Positions 7,200 through 27,472 of a stretch of DNA of 64,000 nt are shown one piece after another; position 1 is the stretch's first letter, and each line of letters starts with the position of its first letter. The notes beneath the pieces are model-generated. The model ran no database searches. It had not been told where the DNA came from and saw nothing but the letters and a program-made list of their open reading frames with translations. This DNA is from Erpobdella octoculata. Its lineage: Eukaryota > Annelida > Clitellata > Hirudinida > Erpobdellidae. The stretch is taken from positions 33,812,042 through 33,876,041 of the forward strand of contig OZ022239.1 in NCBI GenBank assembly GCA_963978895.1, given 5' to 3'. Both the position numbers and the translations under genes were made by a program.

Positions 7200-9740
7200 C
7201 TATCTTGGGAACATTGCAAATTCAAACAACCAGATGATAGAGAGAGCAAAGATGGTCCAGGTGAATATTTTCTTAGACCCACTCTCTGTAAATCACAATT
7301 AAATATCTTAAAATCCAATCACATTCCTAAAGAAATGAACAAACTAAACAATTATATATTTTAGGAGTATTTCGCCAATTATAAAAAAAATGAAAAACAA
7401 AATAATATTCAAATTGTTGATGAAACTTGCAAATGCAACAATATGTGAAAAATTCTATTTGATGGTAGTAATAATAATAATAATAATTTATTATTATAAC
7501 CATGTAATCCCAAAATCCACCCGATTAGATCTCCTTCAAGCTCTGAACAAAAAGATTGTTGACAGATTCCAAAATAATTAAACAGTACAAACCATTCAGA
7601 GATGGAACATTGATGTAATCGTAAATCTTTATTTTTGACAGCTCAAATGTGCATCTGAAAGTGCCTGATTGTTCAAATGAAATTAAAATTTAGATAAAAA
7701 CAAACTGTCATTTAGTCGAGAATTTCCGAAAGTTAAGAAAAAATACTAATAATCAGTGACGACTACCAAAAGCATCAACACACCTGATTCAGACACCTTG
7801 AGCTTTGCACAAGGCTCGATGCAAGAATCTTTCTGGGCACTACTGGACGTCCCATTGGGAAATACCCAGGAAGATTCATACTTCGGACTGTTGTGACTGA
7901 ACCCCAATAGATGGCACTCGATTATGAAGGAATAACTATCAGAAGACGTGTTTGAAAGCTTCTTAACAACTGCATGGTTATCAAATAAAACATACAATTT
8001 AAAAAATAAAAAGTTTTTTTGGCAACCAATGTAGGAAATAGGCTTCTCGTATTGAATTATCATACCAGATGGATATTTCTTCCATCTTCTGCCCTTGCTT
8101 ACCGGAACCCACCGCAAAAAGATTATTGAAACAAAAATCAAATGCAAAAAAAATCAAAAAATAAAATTTTTATATATTTTGTGGCCTAGAATTCTGTCGA
8201 CTTGTGCCACACTAAATTAAGATTGCAATGAAATGAAAACTGACTTTCAAAAACATGGAATTCAACCTCATGCCTCCCGTTGGGGTTCCTACACGTGTAA
8301 AAGCCTTCCCCCAACTCTGTGAAATCGAATATCTCCAGGATGCTTAACGTCCACCCTTTGTGTTTTGAGCTGTAGGAACAAAATTTTAAAAAAATAAATA
8401 AAACATCAAACAAAGTAGAAATTGATGATTAAATAATTAAAAAAAAGTGTATACTAAGCTCTAATCTACCCATTGATATATATCAATGGGTAGATTAGAG
8501 CTTAGTATACAAATATATATATCAATGGGTCTACTTAACGTTTTGCCAAAAACCATGCAATATCATATATTCACAAATTCTTTATATTTTGTAATTCAGC
8601 AGCTTTCACTTTTTTGCAAATCGTTTTTTGATCATGATAAGTCGATAAAATAGAAAAACTTTCATGTTTGAAGTATGTGGGGATGAAAAATATAAGAAGT
8701 GTTTTGAATCACTATGAAACAAACAATGTTTTTGTCATAAATCCTTGACTTGAAAAATTAATTTTTGCTTTTTTGAAAGAGCTTAAACCGATGGTTTACT
8801 TCTGTGGAAAAATATGTAACTTTTTTAAATTTTAATTTATTTTATATTTTATTTAAATTTTGTCCAACTGATTTGAAAATGTAATAGAATGCATTGTGAT
8901 CAACTACAATTCACTAAATTTCAGTTTCATTGGAAAACAGAAAGTATGTTTTTATAAGTGTCTAAAGATACCAATGCATGGCTCAAGCATGCAAGCAAGC
9001 AAACATGGTGAAATTAATATAAAAAATTTGAAAAAAAAACTTACAAAAAGTTTGTTATGTGAACCTTCTTATCTAGAGGTTTGATTTCAACTCCAGATGA
9101 GTTGAACCACTGGACATCAACGTCTGAACTGCAACAACGTAACGTCAAGTTGTGACCTCTGAAAATCCAAATCAGGTTGTCACTGACTGGTGCGATGGCT
9201 AAAAGAAAAGTTTCACGACCATAACATTTTTAAAACGAGAAACTGTCAAAAAGTATAAGTGACAACCAAAAAAAATTCATAATTTTATTTTATTTTTTAT
9301 TACAACATTAATATAAGAAAAATTGAAATGATGAAAAGGACCAAAGAAAACAGAACAGTGACATGATTTTTAAAAGCTAGCATTTGTTCTAGACACATTT
9401 GACTGCCCATCTATTTCTATTCCCTAGAAAAGACATAATAATCTATGCTGACTCTACTAAAGATGGGTATAATTAATAGTTGTTTATAATTTGTTTCTGG
9501 TGGTTATTTAACTGATTTTTACTATAGTGCCAACATGCATATAAATTATTAAATACTACTTTAAATTCTCTAAAACGTGAATAAAAAACAAAATAAATCA
9601 AGCCAGTAATAAAAAATAGTTAATTAACCTTCTCCGCTCTGAAAATGTCTCTTCTTGCACTGGCTCTCACAGGTCATCAGCTCGATAATTATCATCGTAA
9701 AAAGAAAAAGGATCTCAAATAATATTTTAAAGGGACTCAT
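7200..9740 (-). CDS. Ig-A: two-Ig-domain type I membrane protein, complete
   Basis: Six minus-strand exons close one frame of 244 residues: 9629-9740, 9045-9198, 8245-8369, 7784-7969, 7593-7664 and 7200-7285. All have GT/AG ends and matching phases (1,2,1,1,1). Exon 1 starts MSPFKILFEILFLFTMIII, a hydrophobic signal peptide. Exons 2+3 form Ig domain 1, with LTLRCC as the B-strand Cys, VQWF as the C-strand Trp, and LEIFDFTELGEGFYTC as the F-strand. Exons 4+5 form Ig domain 2 (FIIECHLLGF, SSWVFPNG, VSESGTFRC). Exon 6 gives one membrane helix (FTWTIFALSIIWLF) and a very short tail ending MFPR. N-glycosylation sequons (NLT, NSS, NTS, NGT) occur in both Ig domains. The protein is inferred to be a cell-surface receptor or adhesion molecule. 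I do not recognise a named family and the ligand is unknown. Ig-B at 17183-21045 is its paralogue. Confidence 0.86.
8448..8511. repeat. 64-bp perfect palindrome
   Basis: Two 32-bp arms with no spacer, centred between 8479 and 8480, are exact reverse complements. A partial third copy of the arm end (atcaatgggtctact) follows at about 8521. It lies in intron 2 of Ig-A. Confidence 0.97.
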
Positions 9741-10042
9741 AATCAATATTTCAGTTTCTTTTTATTGTATTAATAATATCTTATCCGACACAAACTAGTC
9801 GTCTAGTCTACTCGAGTCAGTCTCTAACAGTTTAGTGAGGTTTCTTGGGAAGTGTCCTACTCCTGACTAGTCCTGACCTGAATAGGTAAACCAAATAAAA
9901 AAGTTGGAAAATTGCAGGTATGTTACAGTTTTAAATGTTAGTTTGATTCCAGAAAGTTTTAAGCTTGGCGTCTACTGGCTAGACATTCATTCAATAATTC
10001 AATACATTGCGATGCGATGCAGGACGATTTCGAGAATACATG
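9741..10042. other. Upstream region of Ig-A with 116-bp duplicated block
   Basis: Positions 9889-10004 are repeated with two mismatches at 15332-15447, in the same orientation. The block contains ttgcaggtatgt, which looks like a plus-strand splice donor. The promoter and 5' UTR of Ig-A (minus strand) should also lie here. The last five bases, acatg (10038-10042), are the target-site duplication of the adjacent LTR element. Confidence 0.7.
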
Positions 10043-10618
10043 TGTAACGGTTGTTACTAATTCGTAAATAATTATTTTTATTTTTTTTTATTATTTATTT
10101 TTTTATCTGGGGTATTAAATTAAATATCTATTATTTTATCTTTTATTTCTATGCTATGTGACGATAGGACGGATTTGTTTTAAAAAGAGGATTATTTGAG
10201 TTTCGGTGTGCTTCGTGCTTTGCTTCGTGCTGATAAATTGTAGCTGTGTGCTTCGTGCTTTGCTTCGTGCTGATAAATTGTAGCTGGGTGCTTCGTGCTT
10301 TGCTTCGTGCTGATAAATTGTAGCTGTGTGCTTCGTGCTTTGCCTCGTGCTAATAAATTGTTGCTGTGTGCTTAGTGCTTTTGCTTCGTGCTAATAAATT
10401 GTTGCTGTGTGCTTAGTGCTTTGCTTTGTGCTATTAAATTATTGTTTCGTGCTTCGTGCCTGACTTTGTGCTAAGTTATTAATTTGATTTCTCTGTGTGT
10501 TGTACCTTGGGAGCTGATAAAGTTTGTGGGTACCTCAGAACTTGTGGTGTCTAAATAAATAAGAACCTGAACGCCGGCTCCTGTTGAAGATTTTCCTCAT
10601 CGGACAACCGACGTTACA
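10043..10618 (+). repeat. 5' LTR of element 1
   Basis: 576 bp, TG...CA ends. From about 10199 to 10450 it holds tandem ~40-bp units built on gtgtgcttcgtgctttgctt followed by ataaattgt. One 12-bp piece (tttgcttcgtgc) is missing from the 3' LTR. AATAAA-like motifs are frequent, including one near 10553. Confidence 0.95.
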
Positions 10619-10622
10619 TTTC

Positions 10623-10640
10623 TGGCGCAGTCGACAGGAT
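10623..10640 (+). promoter_or_regulatory. Primer-binding site, tRNA-Ser type
   Basis: tggcgcagtcgacaggat begins 4 bases after the LTR. Its complement ends in CTGCG-CCA preceded by TCCTGTCGA, which matches the T-arm/acceptor end of eukaryotic tRNA-Ser species with a GCAGTCG acceptor. The match is from memory of tRNA consensus and was not searched. Confidence 0.75.
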
Positions 10641-10815
10641 CAGCATCAACATCGCTGATCTTCATCACAAGGAACGGGCCTACTCAACCAAAGTCTCGCC
10701 GAAAAAATCAAGGAAATTTTCTGTGTGGATTCTGTTAGTTTCTTTTTTTTTTTTTTATCATTTGGAAGTTATTGTCAGTACTGTAGGTTAGTGATCAATT
10801 AAGGTAGTTAGGATA

Positions 10816-13539
10816 ATGAATACACCGATATCAATGGTGGCGGAGAAAAGCTCACGGATTGATTCTGAAAATGAATCGCAGGGAGAGGAGTCGCCACTAA
10901 GGCGTAACATAAGTTTTACAGGAATACAATACGAGAGAGATTTAGCGGAGAGGATAAGACAGGAGGAGCGTGAGGACCGCAAAGAAAGAGAGGAGCGTGA
11001 GGACCGCAAAGAAAAAGAAAGAGAGGAGCAGGAGCGTGCGATGCGTATAAAATTAGCTGAGATAGAGAAGGAAGTGAAGTTGGCGGAGTTACAATCACGG
11101 CACGCACGCGATGATGGTTATGGCATGTATAATAATTCCGAACGCGAGAACTATATTCGCAAGGTAAACATTGTTAAGGCAGGATTAATGCCATTCCCTA
11201 CGGAAAAGGTTGAGTTACCGGCGTTTTTTAAATATCTGGAGGACGAATGCCGTTGCCAAGGGATCGATATATCTGACCAAGGGGAAATGCTTAAAGGCAT
11301 CATGGCGGCGCGAGCGGATAATTTATTATATCGTATACCCGTAGAACAGCGGTATAATTACCATTTCCTAAAACAAGCGATTCTTCGGGAATATGGTATT
11401 CATCCTGCCACACTTAAGAACGCCTTCGATAACGCGCAGCGCATGCGCGACGAATCATTTACAACGTTTGCCACCAGAATACACAACCTCTGCACATATT
11501 ATTTAGATAGCTGTGGTGCAGATGGCATTTACGACCGAGTAGTAAGCATCTTATGTGCCGATAAGATCAAGCAAATACTTCCCCGGGACTGTTTAAATTA
11601 TGTCATTGATCGTCCAGGTGAAGTCGATAATTGCCACAAGCAGGTTGCTGAGCACGCAGACAACTATGTTCTGCTACATAAAGACATATTACATAACACA
11701 GCATCCAAAATTCATTCTCGGTCTAGGGACGAAGAGGAATCGACTGGCCTACAACGGGATAGACCACCTGTAGCTCCCCTGACTTATGCACGGCCTATTC
11801 CTCAACCCTCGAAAACTAGCGCAAGCGGTAACATTCGAAAGTGCTACAACTGTGGTAAACTAGGTCACGAGGCACGCGAGTGTCGAGGAACTAAGGTGTG
11901 TACTAATTGCCAGGAAGTGGGTCATGCAAGTCAGCTCTGCCCACGCAACCCCACTAGAGCTAATATATGTCACGTAGATACTCTAGGAGTAGATAATGAG
12001 GCGTTCGAAAGTTATTTCCTTAATGTAAGGATCGGTGATGTTGCACCAGTGAGAGCCCTCAACGACAGTGGAGCTAACCGTTGCTGTATAAGGGCCAGTT
12101 TGGTTGATATTCATCAATGCCCCATACAACGTCAAGGCGTGTTGTGGGGAGCGATAGTGGGTATCGAGCAACCGGTTACTTTGGTCGAACTTACTATAAG
12201 GCCTTATTTATCTGATGACCAATATGTTAGCGTAGCCCCGACAATTAAAGAGTGGTTTGCAGTGGTAGATAACCTCCGGGAGGAAGCCCTCTTAACTCCT
12301 AGCGTAGTCAAAAGAATCCAAGCGTTGAAATCCTACGAAATGGTTACAGCTAGCGCAGCAACCATAGTTATAGAAAAGGACGGCGGCACATCGCCAACAG
12401 ATGTTGAAATAGTAAGGCCAGCCAATACGAATGGAACGATTCAGGACCTCAAGCCGATGCAGAGCAGCCGGATCTCAGCATATCAAATTCACTTACACCA
12501 GGCACCAAATATCCAGCCCAGAGTTGATCAAGAAACTTTGATCATAAATGAAATACAAAGACAGCTGACGAATGAAGAAAGTAAAATACAGGACAGGTCA
12601 CATTTACCTCATCATCCTCCTTCCTCTACTACTTCACCGTCATTGTCACAACCATTTTCCGGGCTTCCTTCATCTGCATCTCAATTTCAAGAGTCGACCA
12701 ATCAATTTAATCTCGATCTTCAACAAATCGAATTTTCTCCTGTGATAAAAAACAAATTAGAAGACACTGAAGCTCTTGATGGTTTTCGTTCAAACAGTCC
12801 TTCGCAGGGTGCCAGACATTCTCCGCGAAACAAGTTTAGAGTTCACTCAAAGACAAACTCCGATTTCGACAGCAGCAACAGCGATCGAACTATTCCTGTT
12901 TCGTTATACCACGTTTTGAATTCAAATGCGGCAAACAACTATCTAACAGTTCACGCACACATGTTACAGCAGATCTTGATTGAAGATGGCCGTTCTAATC
13001 GATGCAAAAGACGAGCAGCCTCTTGTTCAGTGCCATATCTTACGGCCTCCGTTCGGTTAGGTAACAAAAAACTCCTCGTAGAATCCGTCACTCTTTACAC
13101 AATTGACTACCAACGAGAGTTTAGTTTGGCTGTCGATGCAAGCACGGTAGCCGTGGGATGCTGCCTCTTCCAGTGGAACGCGAACCGAGAGGAACAACCC
13201 ATCGCCTTTGCCAGTGCTAAACTCAGTGACACACAACAAAGGTGGGCAACCATCGAAAGAGAAGCCTATGCTGTGGTGTGGGCGCTCCAAAAGTTCAAAG
13301 GGTGGTTACTGCTTTTACAGGTCACGGTCTTCTCCGACCATAATCCCCTTACGTTTCTAACGGAAGTATCGACAAAAAGTTCAAAACTCACAAGATGGGC
13401 CCTGGCACTTCAAGAGTTTGATCTTCAGTTCAAGTACCGGGCGGGACGAACCAACATTCCTGCCGATTTCATGTCACGGTCCATAGAAGACGACGGCGCT
13501 GAGGTTCCCTCCACAACGATCAAGAAAACTATACAATAA
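10816..13539 (+). CDS. Gag-protease-RNase H polyprotein of LTR element 1 (907 aa)
   Basis: Order of parts: a charged Arg/Glu-rich coiled-coil-like N-terminus (residues ~35-100); a capsid-like region (~110-300); two CCHC zinc knuckles starting near residues 343 (CYNCGKLGHEARECRG) and 362 (CTNCQEVGHASQLCPR); a retroviral-type aspartic protease with LNDSGANRCC (Asp 417); about 200 residues of Ser/Pro/Gln-rich sequence of unknown origin; then an RNase H domain from ~770 with FSLAVDAS (Asp 774), ATIEREAYAVVWAL and VFSDHNPL supplying acidic catalytic residues; the frame ends after a FMSRS motif. The RT palm/fingers (no YxDD) and integrase are missing without breaking the frame. The start is the first ATG after the leader. 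Confidence 0.9.
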   Translation: MNTPISMVAEKSSRIDSENESQGEESPLRRNISFTGIQYERDLAERIRQEEREDRKEREEREDRKEKEREEQERAMRIKLAEIEKEVKLAELQSRHARDDGYGMYNNSERENYIRKVNIVKAGLMPFPTEKVELPAFFKYLEDECRCQGIDISDQGEMLKGIMAARADNLLYRIPVEQRYNYHFLKQAILREYGIHPATLKNAFDNAQRMRDESFTTFATRIHNLCTYYLDSCGADGIYDRVVSILCADKIKQILPRDCLNYVIDRPGEVDNCHKQVAEHADNYVLLHKDILHNTASKIHSRSRDEEESTGLQRDRPPVAPLTYARPIPQPSKTSASGNIRKCYNCGKLGHEARECRGTKVCTNCQEVGHASQLCPRNPTRANICHVDTLGVDNEAFESYFLNVRIGDVAPVRALNDSGANRCCIRASLVDIHQCPIQRQGVLWGAIVGIEQPVTLVELTIRPYLSDDQYVSVAPTIKEWFAVVDNLREEALLTPSVVKRIQALKSYEMVTASAATIVIEKDGGTSPTDVEIVRPANTNGTIQDLKPMQSSRISAYQIHLHQAPNIQPRVDQETLIINEIQRQLTNEESKIQDRSHLPHHPPSSTTSPSLSQPFSGLPSSASQFQESTNQFNLDLQQIEFSPVIKNKLEDTEALDGFRSNSPSQGARHSPRNKFRVHSKTNSDFDSSNSDRTIPVSLYHVLNSNAANNYLTVHAHMLQQILIEDGRSNRCKRRAASCSVPYLTASVRLGNKKLLVESVTLYTIDYQREFSLAVDASTVAVGCCLFQWNANREEQPIAFASAKLSDTQQRWATIEREAYAVVWALQKFKGWLLLLQVTVFSDHNPLTFLTEVSTKSSKLTRWALALQEFDLQFKYRAGRTNIPADFMSRSIEDDGAEVPSTTIKKTIQ

Positions 13540-13606
13540 TGTAACGTGAGTTACGGGTGTTGATAACATTGCATTCCACCCTTACACCCTTAACTACACT
13601 CTTTTT

Positions 13607-13617
13607 GGGTAGGGAGG
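13607..13617 (+). promoter_or_regulatory. Polypurine tract of element 1
   Basis: gggtagggagg immediately precedes the 3' LTR, the usual site of plus-strand priming. Confidence 0.85.
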
Positions 13618-14181
13618 TGTAACGGTTGTTACTAATTCGTAAATAATTATTTTTATTTTTTTTTATTATTTATTTTTTTATCTGGGGTATTAAATTAAAT
13701 ATCTATTATTTTATCTTTTATTTCTATGCTATGTGACGATAGGACGGATTTGTTTTAAAAAGAGGATTATTTGAGTTTCGGTGTGCTTCGTGCTGATAAA
13801 TTGTAGCTGTGTGCTTCGTGCTTTGCTTCGTGCTGATAAATTGTAGCTGGGTGCTTCGTGCTTTGCTTCGTGCTGATAAATTGTAGCTGTGTGCTTCGTG
13901 CTTTGCCTCGTGCTAATAAATTGTTGCTGTGTGCTTAGTGCTTTTGCTTCGTGCTAATAAATTGTTGCTGTGTGCTTAGTGCTTTGCTTTGTGCTATTAA
14001 ATTATTGTTTCGTGCTTCGTGCCTGACTTTGTGCTAAGTTATTAATTTGATTTCTCTGTGTGTTGTACCTTGGGAGCTGATAAAGTTTGTGGGTACCTCA
14101 GAACTTGTGGTGTCTAAATAAATAAGAACCTGAACGCCGGCTCCTGTTGAAGATTTTCCTCATCGGACAACCGACGTTACA
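13618..14181 (+). repeat. 3' LTR of element 1
   Basis: 564 bp. Identical by eye to the 5' LTR apart from the 12-bp indel in the tandem repeats. Followed by target duplication acatg. Confidence 0.95.
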
Positions 14182-14186
14182 ACATG

Positions 14187-14519
14187 AATTAATATAAATA
14201 TATAGAATTATGAAATCAGAAGAAGGAGTAATACGTTAGTTAGTTATAATTTATAATTAATATAACAATAAATATATAAATCATTATCATATGACGCAGA
14301 AACCCATTAGGCAGTATACTGATCGATCTCCGTTTATACAGAGAAAAGTGTCAATAAGGAGAGACTTTATTTTAATTTATAAATCACGTCTAATTAATAG
14401 TAATTGATAATAAAGCGTGATTATAAAATAAGAAAACGCGGGAACCTCTGTTGCCGCGCTAGAGAAGAATATAGGTCGCTACTGTTCTAGAAAAGGCGGT
14501 GACGTTAAGAAGTGTAAAT
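14187..14519. other. Spacer between LTR element 1 and a hAT MITE
   Basis: AT-rich first half, then a more balanced stretch (14420-14515). No gene or repeat recognised. Confidence 0.4.
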
Positions 14520-14527
14520 GATTTTGA

Positions 14528-15283
14528 TAGTGATGGGCACCAACTACTTCAATTGTAGTTACAACTACATGCCAACTACCTCATGACAGAAGTAGTTATA
14601 ACTACATGTTAACTACTTTAGAAGAGAGGTAGTTATAACTAGTTTGTTAACTACTACTAAAGTAGTTAACTACTTTCCAACTACTTTTTAACTACTCGTA
14701 TATTTATAAAACATGTACTGTAAGATATAAAAACACAACAACAAAAAATAAATTTGCATTTAATAATTTTTTTTAAAGAATAATAATGATTGTTAACTAA
14801 ATATAATAAAAACAAAGTATTTTTAAGCAAATTTTAGAAAAACAAAGTGTTTATTGATACATAAAGGTTGAATGACAAAGTTCAAAATTTGTTAAAACTG
14901 GAACGGCTTTTCAGAAAAACCATACGGTCAAATAAAGTGTCACTCATTTTGCACCTTCGAGGTGTCAAAATCATACCAGCCATGCTTGGAAGAGTAGAAT
15001 TGGCTTTTATGAAAGCTCATTCTACAAATGGATAATCCTTCAGTGATTGAACATTCGATGCTTTAGATTATATTTTTAAATTATCTGGCTTTTTAATAAT
15101 TTTGTTACAGCGCTAAGTCAAAGTAGTTAGACTAGTTATAACTACCAAACTAGATCATAAAAGTAGTTATAACTACATGGCAACTACTCAAAAACAAAAG
15201 TAGTTATAACTACCATGTAACTACTATAAATGTAGTTATAACTACAGTAGTTACAACTACAGTAGTTAAAGTGCCCATCACTG
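14528..15283. mobile_element. hAT-type MITE with AGTAGTTATAACTAC subterminal repeats
   Basis: 756 bp with terminal inverted repeats: left tagtgatgggcac, right reverse complement cagtgatgggcac. A perfect 8-bp target duplication gattttga (14520-14527 and 15284-15291) identifies a hAT-superfamily insertion. About 150-200 bp at each end consist of many copies of the near-palindrome agtagttataactac in both orientations, probably transposase-binding repeats. The middle is AT-rich with no transposase ORF. Confidence 0.92.
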
Positions 15284-15331
15284 GATTTTGAAGAGAATGT
15301 TTCAGAGTGTTCGTTTTGTTGCACGCTTTCA

Positions 15332-15447
15332 AACCAGATAAAAAAGTTGGAAAATTGCAGGTATGTTACAGTTTTAAATGTTAGTTTGATTCCAGAAAGT
15401 TTTAAGCTTGGCGTCTACTGGCTAGACATTCAATCAATAATTCAATA
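15332..15447 (+). repeat. Second copy of the 116-bp direct repeat
   Basis: Matches 9889-10004 with two mismatches. The pair brackets LTR element 1 and the hAT MITE, about 5.4 kb apart. Confidence 0.9.
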
Positions 15448-17182
15448 TTTAACTTAAAAATAAGACAATGTTATTTGAAATATTCATAACATGATCATGT
15501 CATGCTCAAGCGAATTGCTCCACACAATCTACAAGTAGCAGTGGCGCAGCCATGGGGGCACGTCCCCCAAAAACTTGTCAAAGTTGATTTTGAAGTGACA
15601 AGCGTGCCCATGTATTTGGGGTGTTTTTCAACTTTCCTCGATGTATATTCTCTAATATTTTGTGCACTCTGCACATCTCCATTGTTATGTAACTTCTTTT
15701 GCGTTTATGCGACACAAAAAGTTTAGTTAAAAATGTTAATATGTACACTTTAATATTATTTTTAACCCCTCAAATCAAGGTCCGGTTCATGCAACACTCT
15801 AGTGTGGCTAGCCCTAAGCAATCCAGTCTGAGGTCTCCTTCCAAACAAAGGTTCTATCTGGCAAAGGATAAACATTTTATTGAATGCAAACAAAAACTAA
15901 AATGTCAAAGCTGTTCAGACAGACAGACAGAATATTAATTGTTATGCAATAGAGAACAAAATACAAAACCGACAAGAAGTATACATTATACATCACCCAA
16001 GAAAAAAATAATCTTTTTCGTAATCAATCAATCACAAAAATTTCATGGCGCCTTTTACAGAAGCACAAAAGACGCTTTGAGACAAAGCAGAAGCAGCATT
16101 AAAGATGTACGTGTTTGACCAAAATAAAATGCAAAGAACTGGGCAAATGGACATACAGACACGTAAAATTATATTCTTACAAAATAAATAAATAAAACCA
16201 TTAAAATACATAATTCTTCCAAGAATAATGTTTATTGACCTCAATGATAAGACACAAAGGGCTGATGCTTAAACATTATCATCAAAAATACAAGAAAATA
16301 ATTTCAAAACTTGAAAAAAGTAGGTTGAAATACATCATGAATGCTAAGAAGCACATACAGACCAGCCTTTGAAAAAAGGCACAACACTTACAAAATATCA
16401 ATTACTATGCCTATCATCTTCATTCCCAGCAAGAACAAATTCGATCACAGACTATAATTTGCTTCATAACTGTCTTGATTCTGATAAATAACATAAAAAA
16501 AACGAACTATGATTTCTTTCACATGCATACAACACTGAAAAAAACAACTTTGAAACAGATCCTCATGGGAGAAATTGACTATATGAAGATACAAACCAAA
16601 ATAAAATGCTTATTAGTAGTTAACTGGTTCGTGCATCAGAATCACATGAATTTGATTATTGTTGCAGTGGGTGCTTTAGCAATTCGTTGAGGAAATGGCA
16701 CATCCCTCCATCCCTAGTTTGGATAACATTGTGGCAGACGGTGGCGACCGACATTCTAGCTTCAGACACACAGGTGGGCAACAAATGAAATTGTGCTACT
16801 TCATGTACGAGCTGTTCCTGGAGCTTCTGGCTTACTTCCGAGCACGAAGCAGCATTTTAATGACACTGTACAAATTCACCTACACCTCTCATAGAGCATA
16901 AAGAAATAATATGTCTACTCGCTAGAGGTTCGATGTTGTCAACTTGTTACCCTCGACTTAAACGATGATGATGCCAGGACGAGATGGAACATTCGACGGC
17001 ATCGCGAAGACTGAGTCGGCAGAAATAATGGAATGCCGAACATTACAAATAGAGACATAGAGACCGATAGCCTATCACAAGGAAAATCAAATCAAAGGTC
17101 ACTTCTTATATGCTACAATATTTGTTAAATATACATAAAATAAATGACATCAACCAAGAAAACTTGAATAGCTTAAACGAAG
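15448..17182. other. No gene confirmed; probable Ig-B 3' UTR and an unassigned non-AT-rich patch
   Basis: This lies downstream of minus-strand Ig-B. Minus-strand AATAAA signals occur near 16220 and 15880. A patch at 16690-16900 has balanced composition: plus strand, an ATG at 16695 followed by 26 codons to a good donor (acacag/gtgggc); minus strand, a ~65-codon open frame. Neither resembles a family I know. Confidence 0.35.
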
Positions 17183-18007
17183 CTACTCAATGCATCTCTT
17201 CGAGATCAACTGAGGGTCTTTAAATATATTGAGGATACAACTTGAAGAGATGGATACTAGGAGAAGGGTAAGAATAACCCACGAGGTTGTAGGAGTTCCA
17301 CTATCTGTAACACAAGGATAAATAAAAAATTATAATTATGCATTTGCATAAAAAAACAGCATATGCCAAAATGCACATATCCCATAAGTAGCCGTTTGAT
17401 TTGTAATTCATAACTTTATTTTTTTAATCTTTTTTTGAGTGGGTATGTGATGTTTTGAAGTCTATTTCGATGGAAGGTCACTTTTTACATCTAAATTACA
17501 ATACATGTGACAAGCTGGGTAGCAACACACAGAAATATGAAGAAGAAAAAACTTATGTCAAGTTTAATATCTTTATAATGAAAAAAAGAAAAATAACTTA
17601 CTTGGCACTATAAAAGTTTCGTAAGCCTCAAAACTTTGTGAGGTGATTGAGACAGTTGGGAGCTTGAAAATGCATTTGTAGTGACCTGATGATATAGAAA
17701 ACCATGTTAAGGTTATGATATATAAAGAAGAAATTTCAGAGTGGTTAATAAACTTGAATACAGGTTTTCTGGTTTGAATCCCATCATAGTCATGGTTACC
17801 TTTCTTGAATTTAATATGAAACAAGTAAATTAAAAACGAATTTTTAAAACCCAATGCTTTTATATCTAATTAAAACACAAATTTTGCAATCAATTTTTTC
17901 TTATATTACTCTTCACAATTCCCTTGGCAAACTTCCAGAGACCACATCATGTTAAATAAACAACTTAGCTAGCTTCCCATGAGACAAATTTTATTCAATT
18001 TGCGGTT

Positions 18008-18041
<34 letters not shown>

Positions 18042-21000
18042 AACATTTATTGAGCACGAAAGAAAACAACAGTGAAGTTATAAATAAGGAAAAAAAATCA
18101 AGTGCTCAAAAGGTTCATCCAAAGGGAATTACTTCCCGCTAACTGGACGACCTATAAACGAAAATTTAGATACGAACCGAGACAGAGAAATAAAAGTTAA
18201 CATAAGTGTATAGGAGTAAACATAAGTATATATAAGTTAACATATCTGTATCGAAGTTAACATAAGTATATAGATATTGAAATTATGAATCTAGCTGTAA
18301 TATGTAAGATTTCAACGATTTTTTAAATAGACTTTTTTTTTTGTAGACTGTTTAATTAAAATTAACTAAATTAATTGACTTATTGTAAAACTAATAATTG
18401 AATATTGCATTGTCTTCTATTTTGAGCATGTATGCAAAATTTGAAAAAAATCTATCATCAGGAAGTGACTCAAAAATTGAATTACAAGAATTGAAACAGA
18501 CAGAGAAACAGAAAAACAGAGACGACGACTCTGGCGAATGAATTAAAAAAAAACAGACAAACAGACGCGACGAGTTAATAAAAGCATTGTAGAAAAAAAA
18601 AGACATTAAAGTGCTAATAATTTCAAATAAAGCTCAGCAGCTCCATAAACAGCTTGCGCATAAAAGATTACGCAGCTGTTGCCCAAGTAAAAACTCTGGC
18701 TTTGTCTTAGATAGTTTCAGTCTGTGTCGAGATCATGGTAGTTTGGGGCTGGAGTTTGTAGAATACAAATAAATAGAGCCACCACGCATCCTGCTGTCTG
18801 TGCTGCAACAGGCAAATAAAGAAAAGTATTTTGGATAAAACTTGGCTCAAAAACCCAAATTAGAGATTGATTAAGATTTGGTGATCAATATAGAAAAAAT
18901 GTCTAGCTATAGGTTAGTGTAGAAAAATAAGCATTTAGAAATTATTGAAGAAATAAACATGTCACACAAATAACTAATAAAACAGGAATTGTAACATACC
19001 AGCTACAGAAGTTTTGAGCGATATACAGAAATCATCGAGCGAACAATGACGCAGAGGTTGAGAGTAGCCTTCTTGACCGTTCGGTAAAACCCACCAGGAA
19101 TCGGTTGACGGTTTGTTGTGCGGAATGCCGTCCAAGCGACATTCCAGTAGGAATAAACCCGGTTCTATTTCTTTGTTTGTTGTTTTCACTGAATAAAAAA
19201 AAACAAATTACTACAACTCCTACTGCAAAAAACAAATTACTACAACTTTTACTGTAGAAAACAAAGTACTTCAGTAATATAGAACTGACTCATATCAATC
19301 TATTGTGAACTGGCATTTATTACAATTATGGCATTAGAGTCATAGCAACAGAAACCTCCATGATTTTTCAAAGGACAAATAATTTTATACAGTTGCCAAA
19401 TGCAAAAAAGATTTGTATGTAATCAAACAAAAAGATTTTCAACAGTGAAATAACCAAAAACAAATGCAAAAATCTAACTTTCGATTACGTGGAAGTCGAC
19501 TGTATACTTCCCGATTGCGTTTTTGCAGATATACGAATGTTGTCCCAATTCCTTGAAGATGAAAATCTCAAGAGTACTTTTTGCAACATTTTTATGTTTG
19601 TAACTGTAACAAAGAAAAACCATAAAGTTAGAATCAATGGTACAACAAATCTGATAGCTACGAAATAGGTCCTTGCAATTGCTCTTTCTACCACTAAAGG
19701 GCTGCCCAATTTCCATTTGCATGCAAATACAGGCCCACTCACAGAAATTCAAAATTTCTCGATTGTCTTAAATTTTTAATAGCAAGTCACATGTCGTCAC
19801 GCTCAATGTAAAAACAAGTAAAGGAAAAAAACGAGTTCTTCAACACATCCTTTTATGAGAAAGGAAAGATGTATAGGGCATTTGTTCAAAGTGTCCTTGT
19901 TTATGGCACTGAAACATGGTCTATGAAGGTGGAGAATCTAAGAAGTTTAGAAAGGGCAGAGCGTATGATGGTTAGATGGATGTGTGGTGTTTCGTTGAAT
20001 GATCGTGCACGTAGTGTGGATTTGTATAGCCTTCTGAATGTTCCTAGTGTGGCTGATGTGGTGAGGCGTGGAAGAGTAAGGTGGTTTGGACATTTGGAGC
20101 GTAAAAGTGCAAATGATTGGGTTTCGGCATGTAGAGATGTGGATGTTGTAGGAGTGAAAAGTAAAGGTAGAAGTAGGAAGACTTGGAGGGAATGTGTGAA
20201 GAAAGATATGGATGAGCTCGGCCTAAAGCGGCAGTCTGCCCTGGATCGTGAGTTGTGGAGGAGCCTGATATGGAAAAAACGTCCAAGCCTAGCGTGGAAT
20301 AGGGACGTTTCAAAAATAAATGATGATGATGATGAAACTTTTATTTCAAATACACTCGATTTAGAAATTAAGTTTTACGGTTGTTTTTCAATTGAATCAT
20401 GTAATGTCTTCCAATATAAAGCTATGCTGAAAATTTCAGCTTCCCAGCTAGTCAAAAAGCTGGTTAAACTTTACTTGCAAGATTTGCGTACAGAGAGAGG
20501 CACCCACAAACAAACAGAGATTGCAAGTTGAATAAAAGTATGTAGTAATGGACTCCAATAATCTTGAGATGGCCTACTGAGAGCTTAATTCAGTGCCTGT
20601 CAACACGCTGAATTTTTGCTTATTGTTCCACCCGAGATGAACCACCATCTCCAAAGTAAATCTCCCTTCAATATACATCTTCTGAAAAAGCAGTGAAGCA
20701 ACAAAATTATTATTCAACCTTTTGGTTGCTTCATTAGAAATGTTCAATAAATCTTCAATCTTATTTACCACCGCATTGTAGAGTATCAGAATACAAGCAA
20801 TGAGAATTTTTAGTAAAAATGAATATAAAACAAATAAACATCTAAGTAACTATTAGGAACTTGATGAATCTCTCATTGTAAAACTTACATGATATTGGTG
20901 ACGTGGCATTCTCTATCCCGAGGCCTTATTTCATTTTCTGAACTATCATACCACTGTATGTCAGAGAATCCGAGGCCGCAGCAAGCAAGAGATAGATTTT

Positions 21001-21045
21001 GACCCTTGAGAAGTAAATAAGGATTTTCATCAATGGGGTGGATAG
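17183..21045 (-). CDS. Ig-B: paralogue of Ig-A, two-Ig-domain membrane protein (signal exon not resolved)
   Basis: Minus-strand exons 20889-21045, 19479-19603, 19000-19188, 17602-17685 and 17183-17304 (stop) keep one frame with the same phases as Ig-A. The second has exactly the same length (125 nt) as its Ig-A counterpart. Ig domain 1 shows LSLACCGLGFSDIQWYDSS then LEIFIFKELGQHSYIC. Ig domain 2 shows LFLLECRLDGIPHNKPSTDS, WWVLPNG and VAGHYKCIF. The last exon encodes SWVILTLLLVSISSSCIL, a membrane helix, and a tail ending KRCIE. The CC at the first Ig cysteine and the ELG.. .Y.C pattern are shared with Ig-A. The signal-peptide exon is missing; a hydrophobic frame at 21591-21723 could serve but has a poor donor. 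An RTE-like LINE fragment sits in the intron before 19603. Function is unknown, inferred cell-surface recognition or adhesion. Confidence 0.83.
17821..18589 (+). repeat. Dispersed repeat family 'acaagtaaa', long copy
   Basis: Starts acaagtaaattaaaaacg, ends gttaataaaagcattg. Shares its first half with the inverted copy at 38110-38310 and its second half with 5334-5521. Contains a ~32-base T run at about 18009-18040. It lies in the intron between the Ig2a and Ig2b exons of Ig-B. Confidence 0.8.
18717..18802 (-). CDS. Candidate alternative terminal exon of Ig-B
   Basis: A minus-strand acceptor (ctgttgcag) is followed in the right phase to join the 19000-19188 exon by GCVVALFICILQ, then a short tail NYHDLDTD and a stop. 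It would truncate Ig domain 2 before its second cysteine and give a shorter product. No equivalent is seen in Ig-A, where the matching intron is only ~120 bp. It may be chance. Confidence 0.3.
19863..20337 (+). pseudogene. 5'-truncated RTE-like LINE, C-terminal RT remnant and 3' tail
   Basis: The frame from 19869 reads the C-terminal part of a LINE ORF: VYGTETWSMKVENLRSLERA, RRGRVRWFGHLERK and GRSRKTWRECVKKDMDELGL, patterns typical of RTE-type proteins downstream of the RT. It lacks the endonuclease and RT core. The 3' end runs into (GAT)n at 20320-20337, the short tandem tail usual for RTE elements. It is embedded in a dispersed repeat whose uninterrupted relative is at 63858-64000: caagtaaaggaaaaa lies on its left and ttcaaatacactcgattta on its right. 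Confidence 0.82.
20338..20545 (+). repeat. 3' part of a dispersed repeat split by the RTE fragment
   Basis: ttcaaatacactcgattta and tcaattgaatcatgtaat match 63896-63980. The end (acaaacagagattgc..aataaaagtat) resembles the 3' ends of the 'acaagtaaa' family. Confidence 0.6.
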
Positions 21046-21418
21046 CTGAAATGATAAAGTTTTAGAATAAATATCTGAGATATTACTATTAATACTTAAT
21101 GGAATTCACAACTGGCTATATCAATCGCTTTCTTAAAACTTTGAATTAAGATAACATAGACATAAACATTTTCTTCATGACAAAAAATAGTAAACTACAC
21201 ATTAAATTTAAATCAAAACAAATATAATTTGCAGTTAGTTATAGCACAATAATTCAAGCACAAATTCCAAGATAATTAATTTTAATTAATTACTGCATTA
21301 CCAAGACCTACAACTTTAAAAATCACCTATACATTTGTTGAACCTTAAAGTTAAACGCAGTTTATTATATACATTATGATTTAGGTGGAGATTAGCGTCA
21401 TAAATTATTTCCGGTGTT

Positions 21419-21520
21419 TTTAATTATATCTTTTATTATAATAATTATATATTTTATTATAATAATTATATATTTTATTATAATAATTATATATTTTATT
21501 ATAATAATTATATATTTATA
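21419..21520 (+). repeat. AT-rich ~22-bp tandem repeat
   Basis: About four to five copies of a unit reading attatatattttattataa. Confidence 0.85.
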
Positions 21521-21723
21521 ATCACATTTCCAATTTAATGATCCAACCAGTTTATTAATTTTTTGTAAAAAAATATCTTGTAAAAGTGACCAAATGCACA
21601 ACAGAATGACAGAACCACAACAAAAACTATTAATAGCGCAGTCAAAAATAAAATTATGTGCAAAAAAAGGGCAACAGTCACAAGAAAAAATATTAATCGC
21701 ACTGTCAGAATAACATGAGTCAT

Positions 21724-22204
21724 TCCTGATCATAAATATCTATGTTCCTAATATTTTTAGGAAAATTATATTGCTGGCATCTCCAACGAAAACCATCTAG
21801 CCTAGCCCTTGGTTATATAGAGTTTCGCATCCTATCTCTCGATTCAATTTCTAATATTTTTTGAATATTTTATAGTGGTTTCAAAATTAAGTAATCATTT
21901 ATTTTACAAATAATTTTTATAAACTCACACAGATAATTTCTTTGACATTTCATTTCACTTCACCTTTAGTTATTTTTTTTAAACGAAGGAATCGCGTAGC
22001 ATGTTATATAACGTTATAACTATTACCGTGGCGGTAGGCGCCGGTATGCGATCTTTGACTCGCTATATCTTTATTCATTTTATTTTTTACACTATATAGT
22101 ATATTCAAACTCAGAATTTGTACATTTATTTAAAATATTAGTGAAATTAAAAAAAAATATTAGTGAAATTTAAAAAAAATTATATTGAAACTTTTAATGC
22201 AACT
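21724..22204. other. AT-rich spacer
   Basis: No coding or RNA gene seen. Contains ttataacgttataacta near 22001, a short palindrome. Confidence 0.4.
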
Positions 22205-22263
22205 ACCTAGGATAGGGTTAGGGTTAGAGGTAGGGTTAAGGGTAGGGTACGGGTAAGGTTAGG
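22205..22263 (+). repeat. TTAGGG-like degenerate repeat, left part
   Basis: Irregular GGGTTAG/GGGTAAG units interrupted by LTR element 2. The repeat resumes at 27345. Confidence 0.8.
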
Positions 22264-22663
22264 TGTCACGCCCGCGTAAACGCAGTGTGCGTGCCTGGAC
22301 CTATATTTTTGGAATTTCCGGCGGAGGTGGTAAAAGATGTATTGCACAACGTTGCGTGTTCGGTTTGTTGCGCGATTATTTGAATATTTTAGCCTGTAGC
22401 CTGGAGGGCTTGTATATATAAGGCTGTCGCGATCTACTTCCTTCTTGTTCGCCGGGGTTCGCCATTGTTGGCCATATTTGATAGAACTTGAAACTGTTTT
22501 TTATATCTGTCGTGTTGTTGGTGATAGTTTTCGATAATCTTGATCTATATTCGTGAATAAAACAACTAAAACTATCTACGAGTGTCTTTAACTTTATTAC
22601 GATAGTTAGCCTGGGTTAAATTTCTCCAGCAGTATCGACTATCGCAAAGGCGAAGTCGTGACA
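22264..22663 (+). repeat. 5' LTR of element 2
   Basis: 400 bp. A TATA-like box (tatatataagg) is at 22413-22423 and AATAAA at 22556-22561, giving a plausible U3-R layout. Confidence 0.95.
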
Positions 22664-22675
22664 ATCGAACTTTCT

Positions 22676-22693
22676 TGGTGGCAGCGGTGGGAT
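22676..22693 (+). promoter_or_regulatory. Primer-binding site, tRNA-Leu type
   Basis: tggtggcagcggtgggat starts 12 bases after the LTR. Its complement, ATCCCACCGCTGCCA plus CCA, is the 3' end of animal tRNA-Leu(AAG) as I remember it. This differs from the tRNA-Ser-type site of element 1, so the two elements are distinct lineages. Confidence 0.82.
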
Positions 22694-23091
22694 AATCAGT
22701 CGATACATCGATCAGTTTTGGGTGAGATTCGTCCTGGGTGATAGAGTTCATCGAGTTGGTGAAGTTCTACCAAGTTTGGAGATCTGACGACGTTGGCGGT
22801 ATCCAGTGGTTTTGGCGGGATCAGCGGAATTCGACCGGGATCTGCAAAACCGACCAGGGATTCGACGCAAATCGACCAGATCAAGGAGGATCATCATCGC
22901 AAGATCGACGATTGACGATTCAGTGCTGGAGAAAGAGTCCAGACAGTTTCAGACCGTTCAGTTCGACCACGTGGCGACATCCGTTTCTCAAGGAGGGCCG
23001 ATCCACATCTCAGGTTAGAGATTTTATCGTTGCCGGATTGCCCAGTTAGGTTTTTCTCTCTTTTTCTTCTGTGTAGTAAGGTTTCATAAAT

Positions 23092-26000
23092 ATGTATAGA
23101 ACCCCTACGGTTGAAGAGTCAGTTGCGCAGGATAGTCCAACAGGGATCCTTAGCGAGGAGCACTATCAATTTGTTGATGATAGTCGGCGTCCACGTAGAG
23201 TTAGTGAAGATGCTAATGTTAGCAAAAATTCCAAATCAGTATTAGCTGAGCGTAAGTTAGCATTGCGCGAAGCAGAATTGGCGGCAAAAGAAGCTAAATT
23301 AGAACAGGAGCGTAGACTCGCTGAAGCTAAATTAGAAGAAGATAGGGCGAATCGCAGACTAGCTGAAGCTAAGTTAGAACAGGAAAACAGACTCGCTGAA
23401 GCTAGGTTAGATGAGGATAGGGCAACCCGCAGACTTGCTGAAGCTAAACTAGAGCTGGAACGTGAAAGGATTCAGGACCACAATAGTCTTGAGGTTTCTT
23501 TAGCCGTTCGCACTAGTCGCTTTCAAAATGCCATGAAGGGTATAATGTCAGAGTTTCCTTCAGATCCTGCTGCAATACCGGGGTATTTTCAATATCTCGA
23601 GAATCAGTTTGCATCATACCAAGTTGATGATGATGTGAAACCCAAAATATTACAGGCCCATATGAATAATAGAGCTCGCTCAATCTTGAGTCGATTGACC
23701 ATTGCTCAGTTAGGTGACTATGAGGAATTAAAGCAAATTCTATTGCAGGAATTTCGGGTCACTCCCAGTCTTTTGAGGGAGAGGTTTTATGCTGTAAAAA
23801 GAAGACCTGGTGAGACTTACTCACAGGTAGCTTCTGAATTACACACAGCGTTATCCTATTATATTAAAAGTAGGAATATCGATGAGAATTTCCATCAATT
23901 AGTTAGTTTGATGTGTGCCGATAGATTGAAACAACTAATGTCTCCCAGTTGTGCAGATTTTATTTTAACTCAGGAAAAGGATGATTGGTTGAATCATCTA
24001 GAGCTTTCACGCGTTGCGGATAGCTACATGGCCACACACGAGCATGAGACTAGACCGCCTCGATTCAACAACCCAAAACCAACAGATAAAGGGTCAGGGT
24101 CTCCCACTCCTAATAGAATGACTAAAATAGCCATTGATCCTAATATGGATAAGGATAAAAAGTATGGATTATGCTTTAAATGCCATAAGAAGGGTCATTC
24201 GTTCAAGGAATGTCCTCTACACAAATTCCCTTCCTCAAATTTACCTAATCCCAGAATTAATTGTTGTCAAACAGAAAATTCCTTTAATTGTCTCGGTGAT
24301 AGGAAAACATTTGTTGATGATAAAAATTTGTCCTCTCAGTCAAAAAATTCCCGTAATTGTCTCGATGATAGGAAAACATTGGTTGAGGGTAAAAATTTGT
24401 CTTCTCATTCAGAAAATTCCTTTAGAGGTCTCGTTGATAGGAAAATATTGTTTGATGGTCAAAAATCTTTTCCCTGTCCCGAAGCATGTCCCATTATAGA
24501 TGTTGATGATTATCACATTAGGTCTTATGAGAATGTATTTATCGATCAATTACCATCTATTCCAGCTTTGATTGATGGTGGTGCAGAGGTGTGTTGCATT
24601 AGAGAAGATTTAATTAAATCTCTTCGTAGGGTACCACATAAATTTATAAAATTATCTGGCCTTAAAGGTCAACCAGAAATTGTAGGTTGTGTTAGATTAG
24701 TCGTTCGACCAGATCTTGTGGGTGATGACATTGTGAACCTAGCACCCAAGGTTCGTGCATGGTTTGCTGTCGTCCCAAATCTTAATGAGCAAATTATTAT
24801 CACTCCCTCCGTAAGTAACCTATTAAAAACGATATCATTGTATGATACCGTTGCATACCCTATTAAGAACAAACAAAATGCACATGACTCTGATGTGAAT
24901 GTTCCCAGTCTTGAAATAACTAATTCACAATATTTTGTTTTAGATGAACCTCGTAATGATGAGCATAGTCCAGATGTTGCACTGATTCTAGGTGAAGGTG
25001 TTTCTCGTGCTGCTGACGCTAGGAAAGTTGATTCACAGGCCGATACTTGTCAGGACATAGATGTTTCTGTAGTTTCGGGTGATGATATTTGTCCAGGTGC
25101 TGATGCTAGGAAAGTTGATTCACAGGCCGATACTTGTCAGGACATAGATGTTTCTGTAGTTTCGGGTGATGATATTTGTCCAGGTGCTGATGCTAGGAAA
25201 GTTGATTCACAGACCGATACTTGTGAGGACATAGGTGTTTCTGTAGTTGCGGGTGATGATATTTGTCCAGGTGTTGATGCAGGCGGAAGTGATTCACAAA
25301 CCGACGCTCGATTTACAACCGTTAACGATGATTGTCAGGGGGTAGGTGATAGTAATGATCACGAGGCGTTTGCCAAAGAGCAACATGATTGTCCTTCACT
25401 TAAGTCCTTCTGGTTGCTAGGTATAGATAAGCGTAAAAACTTTTATATCGACAGGGGACTTTTGTTTCACAAGGAGAATCAGTGGGGTCATTCCATAAAA
25501 CAGTTGTGTTTGCCCAGGAATCGTATACTTGCAGTGTTACAGATGGGGCATGATGCCCCCTATTCGGGGCACATGGCGGCCAAGAGTACACGGCAGCGTA
25601 TTCGACTCAGTTTTTGGTTTCCCGATATGGAGAAACAAGTTCAAACCTATTGTGAGTCGTGCCCCGTGTGCCAGTTAAGGGCACCTGTTAGAAAAAGAGA
25701 TCGAGTCCCCATAACTCCCATTCCAAGGGGAGATGAACTACCGTTTAATCATTTAGTTATGGATTGTATAAGGCCCATAATTCCAGCGGGTGATAGTGTG
25801 ACTGTCCGACCCAAGTACAATTATGCCCTGGTTGTTGTCGATTTGTTCTCTAGATGGCCGATGGCCTATCCATTAAGGTCATTAGATGCTAAGTCTGTAT
25901 GTGACCGACTTTTCCATGTATTTTCAGTTCCTCGAATGGTTGGTTTTGTTTGTAGTTATTTCACTCGGAACCTACTTGCGGTTGTGAGAGATTCTTGGAA

Positions 26001-26391
26001 TAGTGCAAAGGATGTGCCTTGGCATTTAGGTACAAAACCACCTGACTACTGGGGGAAGCAAAAGCAAAATCTCAGAATAGCCGTGAGATTTGGTGGAATT
26101 GCAGGTGATCATGTTATCAAATACTATTATTATAGTATAAATCACCAGTGCAGAATCATACCATGGTGGATTCCCATGGTAAGCTTATTGGATTGTATCT
26201 CGAAGGGACCTAGGGGAGACTGCTTTCCAGTCCCCGATATCCCGAATCTGCTACAGATGGTAGGCAGAGCACAATTCCTAAGCTGTTGGCAAATTTCCAT
26301 AAAGTTACTGCACTTTCTTACGAGAAAGATTTACTCGAGTTATGCAGATTTGTTGTCTATGGTTTGGAGTCGGTCAGCAATGCTTTGCTGA
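23092..26391 (+). CDS. Gag-protease-integrase-remnant polyprotein of LTR element 2 (1099 aa)
   Basis: N-terminal Ala/Glu/Arg-rich coiled coil with repeats of RRLAEAKLE (residues ~45-125); capsid-like region (~130-330); one CCHC knuckle CFKCHKKGHSFKEC at ~361; aspartic protease ALIDGGAEVCC (Asp 495, DGG instead of DTG/DSG). Three 29-residue tandem repeats (~641-727, 87 bp each) follow in place of RT/RNase H. Then comes an integrase H2C2 zinc finger (His at ~820; CESCPVC) and the start of the catalytic core with MDC (Asp ~891) and VVVDLFSRWPMAYPL. The second catalytic Asp region is altered to CSYFTRNLL, and the sequence beyond shows no DDE-core motif I recognise. The ATG follows a ~430-bp leader. 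The frame is open throughout, so loss of RT was in frame. Confidence 0.88.
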   Translation: MYRTPTVEESVAQDSPTGILSEEHYQFVDDSRRPRRVSEDANVSKNSKSVLAERKLALREAELAAKEAKLEQERRLAEAKLEEDRANRRLAEAKLEQENRLAEARLDEDRATRRLAEAKLELERERIQDHNSLEVSLAVRTSRFQNAMKGIMSEFPSDPAAIPGYFQYLENQFASYQVDDDVKPKILQAHMNNRARSILSRLTIAQLGDYEELKQILLQEFRVTPSLLRERFYAVKRRPGETYSQVASELHTALSYYIKSRNIDENFHQLVSLMCADRLKQLMSPSCADFILTQEKDDWLNHLELSRVADSYMATHEHETRPPRFNNPKPTDKGSGSPTPNRMTKIAIDPNMDKDKKYGLCFKCHKKGHSFKECPLHKFPSSNLPNPRINCCQTENSFNCLGDRKTFVDDKNLSSQSKNSRNCLDDRKTLVEGKNLSSHSENSFRGLVDRKILFDGQKSFPCPEACPIIDVDDYHIRSYENVFIDQLPSIPALIDGGAEVCCIREDLIKSLRRVPHKFIKLSGLKGQPEIVGCVRLVVRPDLVGDDIVNLAPKVRAWFAVVPNLNEQIIITPSVSNLLKTISLYDTVAYPIKNKQNAHDSDVNVPSLEITNSQYFVLDEPRNDEHSPDVALILGEGVSRAADARKVDSQADTCQDIDVSVVSGDDICPGADARKVDSQADTCQDIDVSVVSGDDICPGADARKVDSQTDTCEDIGVSVVAGDDICPGVDAGGSDSQTDARFTTVNDDCQGVGDSNDHEAFAKEQHDCPSLKSFWLLGIDKRKNFYIDRGLLFHKENQWGHSIKQLCLPRNRILAVLQMGHDAPYSGHMAAKSTRQRIRLSFWFPDMEKQVQTYCESCPVCQLRAPVRKRDRVPITPIPRGDELPFNHLVMDCIRPIIPAGDSVTVRPKYNYALVVVDLFSRWPMAYPLRSLDAKSVCDRLFHVFSVPRMVGFVCSYFTRNLLAVVRDSWNSAKDVPWHLGTKPPDYWGKQKQNLRIAVRFGGIAGDHVIKYYYYSINHQCRIIPWWIPMVSLLDCISKGPRGDCFPVPDIPNLLQMVGRAQFLSCWQISIKLLHFLTRKIYSSYADLLSMVWSRSAMLC
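25012..25272 (+). repeat. 87-bp coding tandem repeat, three copies
   Basis: Each unit encodes a 29-residue stretch containing DARKVDSQ and VSVVSGDDICPG. Copies one and two are almost identical and the third has diverged. It occupies the position where RT would be expected. Confidence 0.93.
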
Positions 26392-26937
26392 GCGCGACTT
26401 CCTTCTCAGAACCATTTGGTGTTTTGTGTGTATCATCATTATTATATTTAGTAGCTGAATTCCTGTCTCGATTAAATTAGATTTGGAGTAGCTGTGGCTA
26501 CGATTAGGTTTATTTATCCTAGGGTGTATAATCTTTGGTTATCGGAAATTGGTATTACTTTATATGGGTAGCTTTGTAATGTTCTTTTGTTAATTTCTTT
26601 CTTTGGGCGATCCTGGTCAACGATAAAGTGGATCGGTCGCAAGTTTTTCTTTGCAGGTTTCCAGGAAGAAGAGCGCGTCACTGAACAAAGAGCTGCAAGA
26701 CGTCTTATTTGTCCTTGCTCGGAAGGTTCTTCGACCACGTCTTTCTTTCGCGTGTGGCTCATCGTCGCGACTGTTCTAGATATTCAGGTTCCCAAGACGA
26801 GCACCAGGAAACCCGACGACAAAAGAAGCCGTTCAGTCAACGGGATCCACACTCAGCCAACCGGATCGACCCAGATCAAAGAATGAAGATATTGCCGCTA
26901 ACGAGAAGGATCGTTACCGACTTTGGGGGGGGAGGTA
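26392..26937 (+). other. 3' internal region and polypurine tract of element 2
   Basis: No domain recognised in the short open frames here. It ends in a G-rich tract (ttgggggggg.aggta, 26923-26937) directly before the 3' LTR. Confidence 0.7.
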
Positions 26938-27344
26938 TGTCACGCCCGCGTAAACGCAGTGTGCGTGCCTGGACCTATATTTTTGGAATTTCCGGCGGAG
27001 GTGGTAAAAGATGTATTGCACAACGTTGCGTGTTCGGTTTGTTGCGCGATTATTTGAATATTTTAGCCTGTAGCCTGTAGCCTGGAGGGCTTGTATATAT
27101 AAGGCTGTCGCGATCTACTTCCTTCTTGTTCGCCGGGGTTCGCCATTGTCGGCCATATTTGATAGAACTTGAAACTGTTTTTTATATCTGTCGTGTTGTT
27201 GGTGATAGTTTTCGATAATCTTGAATTATATTCGTGAATAAAACAACTAAAACTATCTACGAGTGTCTTTAACTTTATTACGATAGTTAGCCTGGGTTAA
27301 ATTTCTCCAGCAGTATCGACTATCGCAAAGGCGAAGTCGTGACA
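26938..27344 (+). repeat. 3' LTR of element 2
   Basis: 407 bp, near-identical to the 5' LTR with one 7-bp duplication. Confidence 0.95.
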
Positions 27345-27472
27345 GTTAGGGTTAAGGTTAGCGGTAAGGTTAGGGGTAAAGTTAGGGGTAGGGATAGGGT
27401 TTCATTTTAATACGGGATTGCAATTTTACAGATTGCAATCACGGCGAACCGCCGGGGCAATAGCAGCGACCT
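27345..27472 (+). repeat. TTAGGG-like repeat, right part, with conserved GC-rich block
   Basis: Degenerate GGTTAGG units to about 27402. The block gaaccgccggggcaatagca then appears, as at 88-113. It is the continuation of the repeat split by LTR element 2. Confidence 0.8.

Follow-up and report, generated by a model that had tools for sequence, protein, structure and literature searches.

The locus described here raises the question of what kind of protein is encoded by two neighbouring genes that an initial annotation read as two-Ig-domain membrane receptors, and which it placed in a rapidly diverging, clustered set such as might be expected of recognition or immune loci. Both genes lie in the window, by which we mean the whole 64,000-nucleotide stretch of Erpobdella octoculata DNA that was analysed, and all positions refer to that stretch. 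With moderate confidence, we read the duplicated pair as two small two-Ig surface proteins that both carry a signal peptide and an anchor and would function as adhesion molecules or co-receptors.

Exons were placed by eye from the raw sequence, guided by the likeness between gene 1 and gene 2, and the junctions were then checked by script. Gene 1 occupies 9740-7200 on the minus strand and consists of six predicted exons that close with TAG and encode 244 amino acids; all five of its introns are bounded by GT..AG, with phases 1,2,1,1,1. Gene 2, its first exon apart, occupies 21045-17183 on the minus strand with five open, in-phase predicted exons and a closing TAG. The four introns between these secure exons are likewise GT..AG (phases 2,1,1,1), and exon 2 is entered in phase 1 with an AG directly before it. 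The predicted exons are as follows.

9629..9740, minus strand: gene 1 exon 1, with the start codon and a hydrophobic stretch resembling a signal peptide (hydropathy; donor GTTAAT in phase 1)
9045..9198, minus strand: gene 1 exon 2, N-terminal half of Ig domain 1, including CC and Trp (script-checked junctions; Pfam ig across exons 2 and 3)
8245..8369, minus strand: gene 1 exon 3, C-terminal half of Ig domain 1, including Y-x-C (script-checked junctions; Pfam ig)
7784..7969, minus strand: gene 1 exon 4, N-terminal half of domain 2 (script-checked junctions; PDB profile of domain 2)
7593..7664, minus strand: gene 1 exon 5, C-terminal half of domain 2, including G-x-F-x-C (script-checked junctions)
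7200..7285, minus strand: gene 1 exon 6, hydrophobic segment at the C-terminus (putative helix in the membrane, or GPI signal), followed by two residues of tail and the stop (junctions, hydropathy)
21591..21723, minus strand: gene 2 exon 1, the nearer of two candidates, with a weak donor (donor score; rival candidate at 28144-28039)
20889..21045, minus strand: gene 2 exon 2, N-terminal half of Ig domain 1, including CC and Trp (script-checked junctions)
19479..19603, minus strand: gene 2 exon 3, C-terminal half of Ig domain 1, including Y-x-C (script-checked junctions)
19000..19188, minus strand: gene 2 exon 4, N-terminal half of domain 2 (script-checked junctions)
17602..17685, minus strand: gene 2 exon 5, C-terminal half of domain 2, including G-x-Y-x-C (script-checked junctions)
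17183..17304, minus strand: gene 2 exon 6, predicted hydrophobic helix, 12-residue tail without tyrosine, and stop (junctions, hydropathy)

The script check agreed with the GT/AG junctions, matching intron phases and closing stops that had been claimed for both genes. Also present in both, as annotated, are the division of domain 1 and of domain 2 over two exons each, a CC doublet in the position of the first Ig cysteine (C59/C60 in gene 1, C66/C67 in gene 2), and a single last exon carrying one hydrophobic stretch and a short tail. The gene structures of both paralogues, as predicted models, are confirmed as real, and the description of a same-strand paralogous pair of two-Ig proteins with one C-terminal hydrophobic segment is supported by junctions, BLASTP, Ig profiles and hydropathy. 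The introns themselves hold two further features: a perfect 64-base palindrome in intron 2 of gene 1 (8448-8511) and, in the second intron of gene 2, an open reading frame (19812-20531) that resembles a LINE fragment by eye and has no Pfam match.

The relationship between the two genes was evaluated at the protein and codon levels. The spliced proteins are identical at 84 of 236 positions (36%, BLASTP E 5e-44); introns 1-4 occupy matching columns of the alignment, and intron 5 is offset by three columns beside a gap. Across the 201 aligned codons of exons 2-6, identity amounts to 117 at the first position, 125 at the second and 65 at the third, which is near-random. Conservation of positions 1 and 2 beside a near-random position 3 indicates that the genes are real coding paralogues derived from an old duplication under constraint, and these figures bear out the paralogy that had been proposed. 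The same comparison gives no support to the description of the pair as rapidly diverging: over 201 codons pN is 0.38 and pS is 0.87, as expected of an old constrained duplication. Because the silent sites are saturated, a divergence rate cannot be given. For the same reason dN/dS between the paralogues, which the initial annotation had put forward as a check, was rejected as a test of positive selection; the values give no hint of fast change. The DNA that surrounds gene 1 and gene 2 can no longer be aligned, the best match being an AT-rich 34 bp (E 0.001) at non-corresponding places. A tblastn search of the 64-kb window with both proteins (E<=10) recovered the two genes and no third copy or stray exons, and the best match outside them was of low complexity (E 0.058). 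The clustered set that had been supposed is thus, within 64 kb, a set of two.

The interval 7200-21045 spans the stop of gene 1 to exon 2 of gene 2, so the signal-peptide exon of gene 2 lies outside it. A first-exon scan of 21060-30000 with a donor cut-off of -3 returned 13 candidates, including 28144-28039 (donor -2.7). The near candidate at 21723-21591 has a donor of -3.2, the weakest of the ten scored and under the cut-off of the scan, and the far one sits beyond an LTR element at 22264-27344. Both are candidates for the first exon of gene 2, and neither is convincing. This element upstream of gene 2 is the second in the window; its LTRs are 97.5% identical and it has an integrase zinc-binding domain match. 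If its insertion had separated the first exon from the rest, gene 2 would be damaged and gene 1 the sole working copy, and the weakness of the near donor together with the position of the far candidate on the other side of the element would fit such an event. However, the other five exons are open, in phase and stop-terminated, and a long first intron is not unusual, in which case the far candidate would simply be exon 1. We regard damage to gene 2 as unlikely.

Both genes are, by their domain 1, members of the Ig superfamily as judged from profiles and residue patterns, and the Ig character of this domain is well supported. The expectation that the spliced proteins would match Ig profiles held for gene 1, which narrowly passes Pfam ig (22.2 bits, curated cut-off 21.8), but failed for gene 2, whose whole protein matched no Pfam family at E<=10; domain 1 of gene 2 alone matched Ig_6 (E 0.13) and no other family. 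Six shuffled ectodomains produced no Ig match in Pfam. A profile built from domain 1 of the two genes was searched against the PDB (E<=10), and every one of its 35 matches was of the Ig superfamily by name, although the matches are not independent of each other and none fell below E 0.01. These comprise 18 T-cell receptor chains, 11 chains of Fc epsilon receptor alpha, two of neurotrimin (the best match, E 0.013), two of neurofascin, VEGFR1 and PDGFR beta, all of which we take to be Ig-superfamily proteins. The two column-shuffled controls returned 0 and 4 matches, none of them Ig. Single-sequence PDB searches gave nothing significant: four matches for gene 1 (neurotrimin at E 0.74 and three ROR2 chains) and two for gene 2, both to one non-Ig yeast protein. 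In domain 1 the two cysteines are 56 residues apart in gene 1 and 57 in gene 2, with the Trp located 9 and 10 residues past the first Cys.

The Cys-Trp-Cys framework is present in all four domains. In domain 2 the Cys-Cys distance is 48 (gene 1) and 51 (gene 2), the Trp follows the first Cys by 16 and 15 residues, and an extra Cys pair is carried. The usual Ig motif is D-x-G-x-Y-x-C, the Asp of which is not universal; this Asp is absent from 4/4 domains, the residue six before the last Cys being Gly, Gly, Glu and Val. When the whole gene 1 protein was searched, its domain 2 part matched Pfam Ig_ADGRF3 (E 0.023), and domain 2 alone gave no Pfam match for either gene. The domain 2 profile had three PDB matches, the best being Contactin-5 (E 0.0086) and the other two not Ig, while the shuffled domain 2 controls had one match each (E 1.4 and 0.056), neither Ig. 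The domain 1 and domain 2 profiles did not match each other. From the residue pattern and weak profile support, domain 2 is likely to be an Ig fold.

Searches for relatives were made with a two-sequence profile against 5.8 billion proteins, in which none of 3404 candidates was a relative at E<=1, and by pattern in viral contigs (600 matches, none confirmed) and prokaryote contigs (101 matches, none confirmed). Ctr copper transporters are widespread in animals, and in a control search of the same collection with the neighbouring Ctr gene, 61 candidates yielded two relatives at E<=1e-5. Coverage of this region of the animal tree in the collection is poor. Since the control found just two relatives, the missing relatives of the pair say little about the proposal that it fits no known family, and their absence was rejected as a sign of novelty.

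The window (GC 29-40% in 4-kb steps) contains transposable elements and a few host genes, and neither Rfam at its gathering scores nor a scan for tRNAs found anything in it. On the plus strand, a Synaptobrevin-like (R-SNARE) gene at about 3060-4460 matches Pfam Synaptobrevin (E 5.4e-23, joined pieces) and has a Thr-rich stretch past the helix. Also on the plus strand, an adaptor-like gene at about 40400-45055 has an IRS-type PTB domain match (E 2e-07); its PH domain is suggested by eye only, and the piece tested had no match. The Ctr copper transporter gene lies at about 48090-51080 on the minus strand (Pfam E 1.4e-25, two joined exons), its first exon not having been found. Between gene 1 and gene 2 is an LTR retroelement (10043-14181) with LTRs 97.9% identical and the same five bases on each flank; its open reading frame has a CCHC knuckle and an RNase H domain, with no Pfam match to a reverse transcriptase core. 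A 117-bp direct repeat (9888-10004 and 15331-15447, 98% identical) surrounds this element together with neighbouring repeats, an arrangement that might reflect insertion or duplication of a larger segment. A long open LINE reading frame at 59783-62620 on the minus strand has endonuclease and reverse transcriptase domains and 709 relatives at E<=1e-10, the top one 49% identical; among the best 120 of the 709, the animal names are two Hydra vulgaris entries. The region 57490-59320 is about 1.8 kb of short AT-rich repeat with several open frames on both strands and is not a gene.

Hydropathy places a hydrophobic stretch at both ends of both models, the N-terminus of gene 2 hinging on its candidate exon 1. 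Past the last hydrophobic segment the tail is about 2 residues in gene 1 and 12 in gene 2, with no tyrosine in either, and N-glycosylation sequons number five in gene 1 and one in gene 2. Each protein would thus consist of a signal peptide, two Ig-like ectodomains and a membrane anchor, presumably displayed at the cell surface, where the Ig ectodomain may bind a partner, either in cis or on an adjacent cell, as an adhesion molecule or co-receptor. By analogy, such a binding role would be the most likely one for the pair. Neither protein would be expected to carry out classical tyrosine signalling itself, because the tails are so short and lack tyrosine. As to the kind of anchor, we infer a helix in gene 2 and a helix or GPI in gene 1.

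The C-terminal segment of gene 1 ends two residues before the C-terminus and is preceded by small residues and a short polar spacer, so arranged that it could equally be a GPI signal instead of a helix. A tentative alternative is that gene 1, and perhaps both genes, encode GPI-anchored adhesion proteins with neither helix nor tail, as in the Dprs and DIPs of Drosophila and the IgLONs of vertebrates; this overlaps the adhesion reading above and differs from it in the anchor. Besides the form of the gene 1 end, it draws on the best weak PDB match of domain 1, the IgLON neurotrimin (E 0.013), and on the release of Dpr10, Dpr19 and DIP-alpha by phospholipase C in vivo, as described in PMC10863630. 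Yet the gene 1 segment contains a Glu and ends in an Arg, and in gene 2 the segment is followed by 12 residues that include Lys and Arg. By sequence, the end of gene 1 appears compatible with a GPI anchor and that of gene 2 less so.

The short tails also bear on the supposition that the pair belongs to a receptor locus for self-recognition or immunity, with variable ligands and signalling through partner chains. Ig receptor genes do stand in tandem here, the Glu within the gene 1 hydrophobic segment might pair with a partner chain, and tail-poor recognition proteins are known; a short tail excludes no recognition role, because fuhc-tm is short-tailed and fester is without known signalling domains (PMC12065747). 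Against this reading, just two copies occur in 64 kb, their divergence is old and constrained with no sign of fast change, and the tails are devoid of tyrosine. We consider it very unlikely, and an immune function of the pair would be a matter of inference. We give still less credence to the idea that the pair founds a two-Ig family specific to its lineage, with gene 1 (possibly GPI-anchored) and a transmembrane gene 2 recognising each other or a shared ligand as a minimal two-gene module for self-recognition or wiring, marked by an unusual CC in domain 1 and the extra Cys pair of domain 2. So far the pair is without bearing on invertebrate immunity, there being no large cluster within 64 kb. 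The most likely reading is that of ordinary two-Ig adhesion or binding proteins. Provided that the genes are expressed, two small Ig surface proteins are gained for an animal with poorly covered relatives, which would help annotation and offer a case for studying the divergence of tail-poor two-Ig proteins after duplication.

Comparison with known systems serves to place the pair. Fc epsilon receptor alpha has two Ig domains and a short tail and signals via partner chains, and it accounts for 11 of the 35 weak domain 1 PDB matches; these matches, however, cover about 25 residues of domain 1 with a best E of 0.068, and the whole profile gives E 0.93. In Botryllus, according to PMC12065747, fuhc-tm is a short-tailed protein of three Ig domains whose gene adjoins fuhc-sec, fester has a sushi domain and no known signalling domain and works with co-receptors, and these fester co-receptors (FcoRs) combine a sushi domain with a long tail carrying tyrosine motifs. 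The resemblance to fuhc-tm, fester and the FcoRs consists in Ig surface proteins encoded side by side, with fuhc-tm being short-tailed. The three Ig domains of fuhc-tm, the sushi domains of fester and FcoR and the tyrosine tail of FcoR, as that source describes them, are features not seen in the pair. Neither protein matched a sushi domain in Pfam at E<=10, and membership of the fester/FcoR group was rejected on this ground and on the lack of a tyrosine motif in tails of 2 and 12 residues. The Hydractinia Alr proteins are single-pass Ig-superfamily surface proteins encoded in large clusters, with Alr1 and Alr2 highly polymorphic (PMC11067881). Like the pair they are Ig-superfamily surface proteins from neighbouring genes; against their large clusters, two copies are counted here within 64 kb.

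Membership of the Dpr, DIP or IgLON families was rejected for want of significant sequence similarity: neurotrimin reaches E 0.74 with a single sequence and 0.013 with the profile, and no Dpr or DIP chain was among the PDB matches of the single-sequence, whole-profile and domain 1 and domain 2 profile searches. The CC of domain 1 and the extra Cys pair of domain 2 would set the pair apart from these families, which are not known to carry them. Dprs have two Ig domains. The hydrophobic C-termini of the Drosophila Dprs and DIPs have been interpreted as helices or GPI sites (PMC6374074). The pair resembles these families in having a small Ig ectodomain, a signal peptide and a hydrophobic C-terminus that is almost tailless, with neurotrimin as the best weak PDB profile match of its first domain.
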